Below are positions 5,628 through 10,275 of a DNA stretch of 64,000 bases, piece by piece. Numbering within the stretch: the first letter of the stretch is position 1; every line of letters begins with the position of its first letter. The notes under the pieces were generated by a model. The model did no database searches. It was given only the letters and a program-made list of their open reading frames with translations, and had not been told where the DNA came from. Made by a program: the position numbers and the translations under genes. Source of the stretch: Sphingobacteriales bacterium 44-61 (GTDB taxonomy: Bacteria; Bacteroidota; Bacteroidia; Chitinophagales; Chitinophagaceae); contig MKTW01000004.1 of the NCBI GenBank assembly GCA_001898405.1, positions 322,156 through 386,155 of the forward strand, in the 5' to 3' direction.

Positions 5628-6263
5628 TCAAAGAGCCTTTCCTCCCAGGTTTTTAAAGTGTCCATTCAACTTGATCTTCTCCTTCAATTGCTCAATACCA
5701 GCTACCATCGGAATGGTTTTCGACAGGTGACGCTTCAGGTATTCCTGCCGCTGACGCTCATCCATCAGGCCAAGCAGTTCGTATTCCTCTTCGAGGGAAA
5801 GACCTACATGATGTGCTACATCATAGGCTTTGAGCTCTTCTTCCTCCTTTTTAAAATCCTTACTCACTTTCAAAGCCTGGTGCAGCTCACGGATACTGGC
5901 CAGCACTTTTCTCATCTGCTCAATATTTCCCTGTTCCCTGTTGTCCGGATAATTGACAATAGCGCCACTGTATAATTTATCAGGTATTTCTTTTATCACT
6001 TCAAGGATACGGAATACACGCCCCCCTTCGGTGCGGATATCCATTTCGCCATTATCATATACTTTGGAGATCTCCTGTATTTTCACCAGTGACCCCATGT
6101 CCTGCAGCCTTTCATCGATCACTGTTGGTATGCCGAATTCTTTTCCCTGCTGATGGCATTCTGTGATAAGTTGCTTATACCGTGGTTCAAAAATATGCAG
6201 GTTCAATTGCTCACCGGGATAAACAACAATGCCAAGCGGAAAAATAGGAATGAAATTGGTCAT
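5628..6263 (-). CDS. Stand-alone Lon N-terminal (substrate-binding) domain protein
   Basis: 211 residues made almost entirely of the LON-N/PUA-like fold that recognises substrates in Lon protease. The typical opening IFPLGIVVYPGEQLNLHIFE and the FEPRYK motif are present. The AAA+ and protease domains of Lon are absent, as is normal for this family of free-standing proteins. The C-terminal part is charged and helical. Molecular role unknown; possibly an adaptor for proteolysis. First gene of the coaX-OMP-lptC run, about 33 bp upstream of coaX. Confidence 0.85.
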   Translation of the reverse strand: MTNFIPIFPLGIVVYPGEQLNLHIFEPRYKQLITECHQQGKEFGIPTVIDERLQDMGSLVKIQEISKVYDNGEMDIRTEGGRVFRILEVIKEIPDKLYSGAIVNYPDNREQGNIEQMRKVLASIRELHQALKVSKDFKKEEEELKAYDVAHHVGLSLEEEYELLGLMDERQRQEYLKRHLSKTIPMVAGIEQLKEKIKLNGHFKNLGGKAL

Positions 6264-6304: not shown

Positions 6305-7549
6305 CTAATCCCTCTTCATGCTGCTGATTTCCCTGCAAACCCCAAACCATTTCCACCACCACAAAACAAAAAAACCATAGATAAATACACCATATTGCGT
6401 TTCCAGGCTCGTTTCAACCAGGAAGCCCATTATTGCTATTGCGTGCAATAGATTCCAGAAAAAACGATGTGGAATATTTTTTACACATAAAGGAAGAAAA
6501 ACGATCATTGTAAATAATATCATTCCTGGCCAGCCAGCCATTCCTCCATATACGATCCATTCGCTGCTGGGATATAACTTATCGGTTTCTTTTATGCCTG
6601 TTACATGCGCGTCGTACCATTGATCGGTTTCACTTTTCAGGTCGCCTGCCCCAACGCCCAGCAATGGGTTTTCCTTTATTATTTCCCATCCGGCTTTAAG
6701 CGATACCAGCCTGTTTCCATCACTGGTGCCCGACATGTATTTGTTTTTGATCACAAAAGAGAGATCATATAAATTATATTTTACCCTGTTCTGAAATGTG
6801 GGAAAGCAAAACCAACCGATCAGTAAAAAAATAATCAGCCCTCCGGTCACCAGCAGTGAAATTCCCGGTTTCCGTTTTGCTTTATAAAAAGCGAAAGCCA
6901 GTCCAAACACGTACAACATCAGCAATCCCGTGCGGGCAGATAAAATATGGAGATAAACAACAGGGATGATCAGGAGTGCTAACCGTACACCCCGGTATTT
7001 TCCCGGAAATTTGTCCCATAGCAATACGATTGTGATCGCTGCCAGGCAAACCAGCCAGCTGAACCGTACATGATCATCATCCAGTGGAGTAGGAATTGTT
7101 TTAGCCCGGAGATAGCTTTCATTGATCGATTGCATATCCAATAAATACTGGCCAATACTCCAGCAACAGGCCAGCGTTGCAAACAATAAAAAGCTATACG
7201 CAATAATTTTCCATTCTTTTTCTTTCAGCCGCCATTGGCCTGCAAACGCAATTGGCAGCAATAGAAAGGGGAGTTTAACCAGCAATACTTTTCCCCATTC
7301 CTGTTTGTCTTCACTCCATAAACCGGAGATAAAGGGGATGAAAAACAGCAGGCTTATACTGATCAATAAAGGAGAGGCAAGGAATTGTTTCAATTGTGTA
7401 TATACCTGGCTATGCAGTGTGGCAAGCACAATGAATGCAATAAGGCTGATGGATAAAAGAGCGCGTGAAACAAACAGGCTGGCCAGCATCAAGATGATCG
7501 TGGCAAAAATGGCCCTGTTGCGCCACTCATTCTGTACAAGAATCCCCAT
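6305..7549 (-). CDS. O-antigen ligase family membrane protein
   Basis: 414 residues with about ten hydrophobic segments spread over the whole length and one large periplasmic loop (around residues 245-330) carrying a GVGAGDL motif, the pattern of Wzy_C/WaaL-type O-antigen ligases and polymerases. These enzymes join or polymerise lipid-linked glycans at the periplasmic face of the inner membrane. Ligase cannot be told apart from polymerase here. Divergent from the MeaB-GT fusion gene with only 28 bp between the start codons, so the promoters must overlap coding sequence. Confidence 0.82.
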   Translation of the reverse strand: MGILVQNEWRNRAIFATIILMLASLFVSRALLSISLIAFIVLATLHSQVYTQLKQFLASPLLISISLLFFIPFISGLWSEDKQEWGKVLLVKLPFLLLPIAFAGQWRLKEKEWKIIAYSFLLFATLACCWSIGQYLLDMQSINESYLRAKTIPTPLDDDHVRFSWLVCLAAITIVLLWDKFPGKYRGVRLALLIIPVVYLHILSARTGLLMLYVFGLAFAFYKAKRKPGISLLVTGGLIIFLLIGWFCFPTFQNRVKYNLYDLSFVIKNKYMSGTSDGNRLVSLKAGWEIIKENPLLGVGAGDLKSETDQWYDAHVTGIKETDKLYPSSEWIVYGGMAGWPGMILFTMIVFLPLCVKNIPHRFFWNLLHAIAIMGFLVETSLETQYGVFIYGFFVLWWWKWFGVCREISSMKRD

Positions 7550-7577
7550 ACATTTGTAAACCTACAACAAGTTTTTC

Positions 7578-9275
7578 ATGTGGCAGGAGCTATCAGCGCA
7601 ATTACAGCAAGGTGATATCAAAGCATTGGCCCGGAGCATTTCCCTGGTGGAGAATGGTTATGAAGGTTATGCTTCATTCCTGGAGCAATTGCCGGCAGGC
7701 AAAGCTGATATCATTGGCATCACCGGCCCTCCCGGCGCAGGCAAAAGCACGCTGGTAGATGCGCTGATCGGCGAACTGGTGAAGGATGGAAAAAAGATCG
7801 CTGTGCTCTGCGTTGACCCCTCATCACCCTTTCATCTTGGCGCTGTGCTGGGCGACAGGATCCGGATGAGCGAATGGTACACCAATCCTTCAGTATTCAT
7901 CCGTTCGCTGGCCAGCCGCGGAAGCATGGGCGGCCTTCACCCTATGATCATTGAAATAACTTACCTGTTAAAAGCAGCAGGTTTTGATCATATCATTATT
8001 GAAACCGTTGGTATCGGGCAAAGTGAAGTGGAAATTGCAGGGCTGGCAGATACGACCGTGGTAGTGCTGGTACCGGAGGCCGGCGATGAGATACAAACAA
8101 TGAAATCGGGGCTGATGGAGATCGCTGATATCTTTGTCGTAAACAAAAGCGACCGGCCAGATGCTGACCATTTTGTAAAAAACCTGCGGCTGATGCTGGC
8201 ACCTTCTTTTACCCGGCATAAAGAAGAAGTACCTGTGCTGAAAACTGTTGCTTCCCAAAAAACAGGCATACCGGAACTGGCTACCGAGATCATCCGGCAG
8301 GGCTCTCATGCCGATACCAAAAAGAAAGCTTTTCTGCTTGCATCCAAGGCATGGCATATTCTTCAAAGAATACAAATGCAGCATATCGATCAGCAGCAAC
8401 TGGAAATCCAGATACAGGAAGCGCTTGCAAAAGGGTCATTCAACCTGTTTGCATTTGTAAATGAAGTGAGCAAACAGCAGAAGGAAACGCCTTACCTGTT
8501 TTCAATATGCTCTATCATCACCAGCCATGATGAATATGGTGAAATGAGAAAGAGTTTTGAAAACTGCGGGTTTACCCAGGATTGCGAATACATTTTTGCA
8601 GACAATACAACGCATAACCGGTTTGATGCCTATACCGCCATTAACCATTTTCTCCGGGAAGCAAACGGCAGATACATTATTATCGTTCATCAGGATGTAA
8701 GATGTATTGATAATATTTCCCGGTTGCAGAAAATACTGGCTGACCTGACACTTGAGGATGATAAATGGGCTGTTTGTGGTAATGCTGGTGCAATGGGCTA
8801 TCACCAGGATGTACGGTATATTACCAATGGTGGAAAGGTTGTAACACATGAAAACCTGCCGGCAAAAGTGTTTTCCCTGGATGAAAATCTGTTGATCGTG
8901 CGTCAGTCAGCCAATATTGTTGTGTCTGCCGACCTGAAAGGTTTTCATCTCTATGCAGCAGACCTTTGCCTGATTGCTGATTACCTTGGCTATTCCTGTT
9001 ATGTTATTCCTTTTATGGTAAAGCATCTGAGCCTGGGCAATCTGAAGGACCTAAAAAGGCATTTACCTGAATTCCTGGACCTGTACGGGAGGAAACTCAG
9101 GCGGCGCTTTATTCAAACACCAAGCTCCAAGTTTGTCCTAAGCAACTCTTCATTCAAAAATAGATTTCTTAATGGGAAGCTGTTCTTCCTGGTGAAGTGG
9201 TATGAAGGGATAAAACTTTTTTTTAAAACCCCGCGTCACAAAAGCCAGTACAGGAAAACTGTCAGGAAGGAATAA
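7578..9275 (+). CDS. MeaB/ArgK-type GTPase fused to a glycosyltransferase domain
   Basis: 565 residues in one uninterrupted frame with two parts. Residues 1-300 are a MeaB GTPase: Walker A GPPGAGKST at 50-58, DPSSPFHLGAVLGDRIRM at 80-97, ETVGIGQSE at 142-150 and the guanine motif NKSD at 189-192. MeaB normally protects and loads methylmalonyl-CoA mutase and is about 300-340 residues. Residues 305-545 look like a GT2-type glycosyltransferase, with a beta-alpha core 'SICSIITS', FADNTT and a metal-motif-like 'IIIVHQDVR'. The linker is only a few residues. The MeaB part ends at about its normal end, so this looks like stop-codon loss between two adjacent genes or a true fusion. A TACATTTG -7 box lies at 7549-7556. 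The context is polysaccharide genes, not mutase genes. Confidence 0.85.
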   Translation: MWQELSAQLQQGDIKALARSISLVENGYEGYASFLEQLPAGKADIIGITGPPGAGKSTLVDALIGELVKDGKKIAVLCVDPSSPFHLGAVLGDRIRMSEWYTNPSVFIRSLASRGSMGGLHPMIIEITYLLKAAGFDHIIIETVGIGQSEVEIAGLADTTVVVLVPEAGDEIQTMKSGLMEIADIFVVNKSDRPDADHFVKNLRLMLAPSFTRHKEEVPVLKTVASQKTGIPELATEIIRQGSHADTKKKAFLLASKAWHILQRIQMQHIDQQQLEIQIQEALAKGSFNLFAFVNEVSKQQKETPYLFSICSIITSHDEYGEMRKSFENCGFTQDCEYIFADNTTHNRFDAYTAINHFLREANGRYIIIVHQDVRCIDNISRLQKILADLTLEDDKWAVCGNAGAMGYHQDVRYITNGGKVVTHENLPAKVFSLDENLLIVRQSANIVVSADLKGFHLYAADLCLIADYLGYSCYVIPFMVKHLSLGNLKDLKRHLPEFLDLYGRKLRRRFIQTPSSKFVLSNSSFKNRFLNGKLFFLVKWYEGIKLFFKTPRHKSQYRKTVRKE

Positions 9276-9276
9276 C

Positions 9277-10275
9277 TCAAAAGCGGGTGATCTCTTTTTT
9301 ATCTACTGAATTCCGGACGGTGTTCACCACTTCTTTCACGGTCAGTAATTTCCTTTCACCAGCTGCTTTGAAAAGCTTTTTGCGGCTTTCAATTACCCTG
9401 CTGTAGTTTCTGGTAAATAATTGCAGTGATTTCAACCAGCCCCATCTCAGCATAAAAAGATGAGCCAGGCTTTCAAATCCAAGCTGAATAAACCATTGAA
9501 ACCGCTTGAAGGCATTCAGGTGAATAGCATGCAGGTACATTTTGTTCCTGTTGTAAACAACCTGGATGCTTTTTTTCTTGTTGCTGGAATTGATGGATAC
9601 AGAAAGTTTATGCCGGCAAACAGAGAAATCATCATAATAGCATTTCCATCCCATTCGCCAGGCCCGGAGACTCAATTCAAAATCTTCCACATAAAAAGGT
9701 GCAAACAGTTCGTCAAACCCACCCAACAATAATAGTTTTTGCCGGTCTACAAAAGCATTGGCGCCAGAGAGATACATGCTGTAGAGCCATTGGCCCTGCT
9801 CTTTATGAACTGGAATATAATTTCCGGAGGTTTTGATCTTGAGACCGTGAAAAGAGGGGTATTTGCCTCCATCCTGTATCTTATCATCCTCCCAGCCGAT
9901 GATCTTGCCCATTACACCAAATGTATCGGCTCTTTCAAAATAGCGAAGCAAGCCATTAAAATAATTGGGCGTAAGCTTTACATCACTGTTCAGCAATAAC
10001 ACATGGGAATACTGAGCATTAAAAATGCCGGTGTTGATAGTAGGAGAAAACCCTTTGTTGACCTCATTGATCAATAACCTTATTCCGGGATATTCTTTTT
10101 GCAGAAATGAAACGGAATCATCGGAAGAGCAATCATCGCAAATAATGATCTCGAAAGGAAGTGCTGCGTCCTTAGCTGCTCCAAAAATGGAAGGAAGGGT
10201 CTGCTCCAGCAAATAACGCCCGTTATAGTTAGGAATTACAATAGATATACCTGAAACGACGGCAACTGCTTGCAT
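9277..10275 (-). CDS. Glycosyltransferase family 2
   Basis: 332 residues with a GT-A fold: the opening ISIVIPNYNG (residues 10-19), the nucleotide motif ICDDCSSDDS, and the metal-binding LLNSDVKL in place of a classic DxD. A later acidic motif FYVEDFELSLRAWRMG is the 'ED' pair that holds the catalytic base in rhamnosyl- and galactofuranosyl-type GT2 enzymes. Cytoplasmic, probably adding a sugar to a lipid-linked surface glycan. Convergent with the MeaB-GT gene, with a single base between the two stop codons. Confidence 0.9.
   Translation of the reverse strand: MQAVAVVSGISIVIPNYNGRYLLEQTLPSIFGAAKDAALPFEIIICDDCSSDDSVSFLQKEYPGIRLLINEVNKGFSPTINTGIFNAQYSHVLLLNSDVKLTPNYFNGLLRYFERADTFGVMGKIIGWEDDKIQDGGKYPSFHGLKIKTSGNYIPVHKEQGQWLYSMYLSGANAFVDRQKLLLLGGFDELFAPFYVEDFELSLRAWRMGWKCYYDDFSVCRHKLSVSINSSNKKKSIQVVYNRNKMYLHAIHLNAFKRFQWFIQLGFESLAHLFMLRWGWLKSLQLFTRNYSRVIESRKKLFKAAGERKLLTVKEVVNTVRNSVDKKEITRF

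Follow-up and report, generated by a model that had tools for sequence, protein, structure and literature searches.

The meaB gene of Sphingobacteriales bacterium 44-61 forms one open reading frame with a glycosyltransferase gene, and this fusion very probably arose within a single lineage by loss of the DNA between two neighboring genes, with the halves keeping their former, unrelated work. The frame lies in a stretch of 64,000 nucleotides of contig MKTW01000004.1 (called the window here), and its features are collected in Table 1. An earlier note had described a complete MeaB-type GTPase with all of its G motifs joined in a single open frame, through a linker of a few residues, to a glycosyltransferase-like domain. 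This description was borne out: the frame has 565 codons, the motifs are present, and comparison with a sister species (G001) gives a linker of ten residues, which places the boundary between the halves at approximately 8468/8499. The genus is represented by two species, the one carrying the fusion and G001.

Table 1. Features of the fused frame and of its neighbors; positions are those of the window.
Feature	Positions	Strand	Basis
Fused open reading frame, MeaB plus majastridin-like glycosyltransferase domain, 565 aa	7578..9275	+	ATG start, no internal stop; two folded domains in the AlphaFold model
MeaB-type GTPase part, residues 1–297	7578..8468	+	TIGR00750, PF03308; 80 % identity to the separate meaB of G001
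P-loop GPPGAGKS, residues 50–57	7725..7748	+	(Near-)invariant in 24 aligned MeaB rows
Switch III, residues 170–176 (D170, Q173, K176)	8085..8105	+	Invariant in the MeaB alignment
In-frame GTG, putative internal start	8466..8468	+	Scan of in-frame codons
Linker, residues 298–307	8469..8498	+	Codon comparison and DNA alignment with G001; site of the net 72-base loss
Majastridin-like GT-A domain, residues 308–565	8499..9272	+	Sequence profile, Foldseek
Conserved in the GT-A domain: HQDV (residues 371–374), SLDE, GFHxYxxDxCL			
Box TACATTTG, ending 21 bases before the meaB ATG	7549..7556	+	Matches the Bacteroidota −7 element TAnnTTTG
O-antigen ligase-like (Wzy_C) gene, divergent neighbor	6305..7549	−	PF04932
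Ordinary GT2 glycosyltransferase gene, convergent neighbor	9277..10275	−	PF00535; adjoins the glycosyltransferase gene in G001 and G027 too
Gene taken to be LON-substrate-binding-like, conserved meaB neighbor in the family	5628..6263	−	Synteny by tblastn

An AlphaFold model of the fused protein was calculated from 12 sequences (mean pLDDT 81, pTM 0.56). The MeaB and glycosyltransferase domains are each predicted with good confidence, and their mutual placement is not reliable at this pTM. The final MeaB helix extends to residue 301, and residue 306 opens the first strand of the glycosyltransferase domain. One row of the alignment consisted of the two genes of G001 read through the TAA that separates them, and it served solely as an anchor for the halves.

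The first half matches the Pfam family PF03308 over residues 17–246 (E=4.6e-77; 259.1 bits against a cut-off of 23.1) and scores 269.5 bits against the NCBIfam MeaB equivalog TIGR00750, where the cut-off is 240.75. The set of G motifs is complete, with DPSSP (80–84), ETVG (142–145), and NKSD (189–192) following the P-loop. An alignment of 24 MeaB relatives shows little or no variation in the P-loop, switch II (142–148), the NKxD motif, and the switch III residues. In the MeaB of M. extorquens, D182, Q185, and K188 couple GTP hydrolysis to the delivery of adenosylcobalamin (PMC9974510); from a constant offset of 12 residues, D170, Q173, and K176 would be their counterparts here. The protein shares with the MeaB/MMAA family (G3E GTPase chaperones of methylmalonyl-CoA mutase) the nucleotide-binding and switch III residues, the length of approximately 300 residues, and a score above the equivalog cut-off. 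Members of that family are normally stand-alone, whereas here a glycosyltransferase-like domain follows at the C-terminus.

The fused MeaB is the only one of the free type in the source genome. A search of that genome for a second free-type copy found none, and the second match lay in an IcmF-type frame, in its G domain. It had been pointed out that no mutase gene lies near the fusion; this is correct, because the client is present in the genome but distant. The large subunit of an acyl-CoA mutase (523 aa; TIGR00641, 775.8 bits) is encoded on another contig, and a separate B12-binding protein is likewise encoded on a contig other than that of the fusion. The IcmF-type frame (1125 aa; G000:C1:793212-796508) combines B12-binding, MeaB-like G, and mutase domains; B12 mutase systems of the fused and of the separate kind thus coexist in this genome. 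In nature, a MeaB-like G domain is known to occur fused in IcmF (isobutyryl-CoA mutase fused; PMC10481361); its partner there is the client mutase itself, whereas the partner in the frame described here is unrelated. Elsewhere in the Chitinophagaceae, MeaB-family matches were absent from two genomes of one genus (G020 and G212).

The second half scored below the cut-off of every Pfam family (residues 308–565; PF00535, 17.6 bits against 23.3; PF13712, 15.0 bits against 27). Among solved structures, a single sequence of the half matched majastridin (PDB IDs: 2NXV and 2QGI) with E=2e-29 over residues 301–510, and a profile of four rows improved this to 5e-45. Foldseek with the whole-protein model ranked majastridin first (E=3e-21, rmsd 1.9 Å), followed by MeaB, the two being found separately. 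Sequence and model alike indicate that the second domain is a majastridin-like GT-A domain, only distantly similar to GT2 and PF13712, and a predicted glycosyltransferase. The domain had been called GT2-like, and of that label the glycosyltransferase fold stands; assignment to ordinary GT2 does not, with PF00535 and PF13712 under their cut-offs and majastridin as the best match. The entire GT-A domain corresponds to majastridin by sequence profile and by fold, but the identity is approximately 30 % and majastridin is stand-alone. The 2QGI entry is its complex with UDP. Majastridin is the sixth open reading frame of the atp operon of Rhodobacter blasticus, a glycosyltransferase-like gene lodged among unrelated housekeeping genes, as is the case here.

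The glycosyltransferase domain is rare: it was detected in 5 of 396 genomes of the family (one match weak) and in 12 of 395 genomes of the phylum (several weak). It is a stand-alone gene in G027, G138, G495, G535, and G558. In G027 (L069:2757-4221) and G138 (L070:7279-8777), the majastridin-like gene adjoins the LON gene, which is the slot of meaB in most relatives. The meaB gene of G027 lies on a different contig from the glycosyltransferase gene, and none was found in G138, a genome that is 69 % complete.

The identical locus of G001 holds two genes. Its meaB (302 aa) ends in TAA and is followed, after a gap of 30 bases, by a glycosyltransferase gene of 278 aa that starts with ATG; by chance the two share one frame. 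The gap carries TAATTTTG, which fits the −7 element TAnnTTTG of the Bacteroidota promoter consensus exactly (PMC6847099); the 64-kb window has this motif at a density of 0.27 per kb and strand. Between the conserved NEV and FS(I/V)CS there are 10 codons in the fused gene as against 34 in G001, a net loss of 72 bases, and the DNA alignment shows that this loss covers the stop codon, the promoter box, and the start codon of the glycosyltransferase gene. The order of genes is the same in both species from lysS through the GT2 gene, and the box ahead of meaB (TACATTTG) is identical in G001. In the other relatives examined, meaB stands alone and has approximately 300 codons. Given separate meaB genes in relatives and stand-alone glycosyltransferase genes elsewhere, two separate genes are most simply taken as ancestral and the fusion as derived in the lineage of the source species. 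One of the two explanations offered in the earlier note, that two adjacent genes lost the stop codon between them, is thereby upheld, and more than the stop has gone.

A fusion common to the genus was considered and rejected. An apparent open frame of 597 aa in G001 (L003:1501-3276), called for both genes together, contains the intervening TAA, and the DNA of such a frame must be read before a fusion is claimed. Several long MeaB frames were likewise set aside, in G254 (515 aa), G845 (484 aa), G1030, G946, G1043, and G1044, none of which has a glycosyltransferase; their surplus length is mostly upstream frame before the true start and, in G1030, partly a masked downstream stretch. No fused copy other than that of the source genome was found among the relatives examined. 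A scan of the genome collection returned matches to the MeaB half only, the nearest named ones being records of Ferruginibacter and Chitinophagaceae, which is the basis for regarding the window as Chitinophagaceae-like. PHROGs gave zero matches, and the fusion is absent from the titles and abstracts of the papers retrieved on MeaB, mutases, fusions, and GTPases. The earlier note had held that two separate genes in all relatives would make the fusion an artefact or a strain-specific accident; by that rule it is an accident specific to the species.

That the fusion occurs in one genome only, with two genes in the relatives, could also be explained by an error of assembly or sequencing in a genome that truly has two genes. 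We consider this very unlikely. The difference from G001 is a net loss of 72 bases and no point error, and it appears that no single-base change could at once terminate MeaB and supply the glycosyltransferase with a standard in-frame start codon at its head, the sole nearby start being the GTG at the very end of MeaB. The gap region in G001 has no repeats of at least 7 bases that would favor a collapse, and the source genome is rated 100 % complete and 1 % contaminated, in 20 contigs.

The same GTG, the only standard start codon close to the head of the glycosyltransferase domain in a scan of in-frame codons, could give rise to a second product. Internal initiation at GTG 8466 would release a free glycosyltransferase of 269 aa (MSKQQKETPYLFSICS...) beside the full fusion, which is compatible with the loss of intergenic DNA. 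The codon is in frame, lies 11 residues ahead of the conserved FSICS (approximately the length of the head in stand-alone relatives), and is preceded by A/T-rich sequence. However, its context lacks the A at −3 that is favored in Bacteroidota (PMC6847099), a search for a promoter box at the junction found none, and MeaB would still carry the glycosyltransferase extension. Two products from this gene are rather unlikely.

Both halves have diverged from G001 mostly at silent sites (pS 0.80 and pN 0.13 for MeaB; pS 0.75 and pN 0.21 for the glycosyltransferase; raw proportions with silent sites saturated), a pattern that mostly reflects the time before fusion. Because the silent sites are saturated, selection after the fusion is inseparable from selection before it. 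The intact frame of the glycosyltransferase half suggests that it is still in use.

These comparisons point to the following course of events. The ancestor of the genus would have had two stand-alone genes on one strand, meaB and, downstream of it, the gene of a majastridin-like glycosyltransferase driven by a promoter of its own. Comparison with G001 shows that the source lineage then lost a net 72 bases in frame, and with them the meaB stop, the promoter box, and the start codon of the second gene. Transcription of the joint gene presumably still starts at the former meaB promoter, as the conserved TACATTTG box suggests, and leads to a single protein whose two domains are predicted to fold separately. 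The MeaB half would gate the loading of adenosylcobalamin into the acyl-CoA mutase whose genes lie on other contigs; the glycosyltransferase half would use a nucleotide sugar, probably a UDP-sugar, as donor and some cell-surface molecule as acceptor. Most likely the fusion is an accident of evolution that created no new pathway, and most likely it is neutral. On the best reading, both halves were left able to do their old jobs. The glycosyltransferase half lacks an ATG of its own and, if impaired by the fusion, may be heading for decay.

The fusion might instead be functional, with the GTPase regulating, dimerizing, or localizing the glycosyltransferase, or with B12 or propionate status coupled to glycan synthesis. 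Two intact domains in frame, the second with no standard ATG at its head, would fit such a role. The C-terminal part of MeaB serves dimerization in relatives (PMC9974510), so the glycosyltransferase would be brought into the dimer. Against this, the fusion was found in none of the relatives searched, glycosyltransferase genes of the same family are stand-alone elsewhere, and the neighborhood of meaB in the family is one of housekeeping genes and not of glycan synthesis. The recruitment of the GTPase to glycan synthesis, which the earlier note had offered as its alternative, found no positive support: this MeaB is the sole free-type copy, it retains the client-coupling residues of switch III, and the mutase genes are present elsewhere. 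We therefore see a slim chance for a functional fusion, and a slimmer one for its most specific form, in which a UDP-sugar transferase has come under the control of the GTP-driven dimer switching of MeaB, linking B12/propionate metabolism with the synthesis of surface glycans in this species.

None of the relatives examined shows the pairing of MeaB with a glycosyltransferase. Together with the unfused locus of G001, a lineage-specific loss of intergenic DNA provides a clean before-and-after case of a bacterial fusion between functionally unrelated neighbors. It also cautions against "Rosetta stone" inference from fusions seen in a single species, since automatic annotation could wrongly tie MeaB to glycan synthesis.

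The statement that both neighbors of the fused frame are polysaccharide genes is literally true but misleading. In many relatives, the neighbors of meaB are LON, coaX, lptC, and a gene for an outer-membrane protein (G006, G029, G021, G003, G036, G010, L035, L036, and L038), where the names of neighbors that lack a Pfam match rest on a reading of their sequences. The O-antigen ligase-like gene between LON and meaB is variable in the family and was detected in G001, G006, and G021 of the synteny set. The polysaccharide genes at the locus are later or variable arrivals, so their present proximity is no sign that MeaB serves glycan synthesis. The O-antigen ligase-like gene also diverges fast, with 58 % identity to G001 as compared with 80 % for MeaB.
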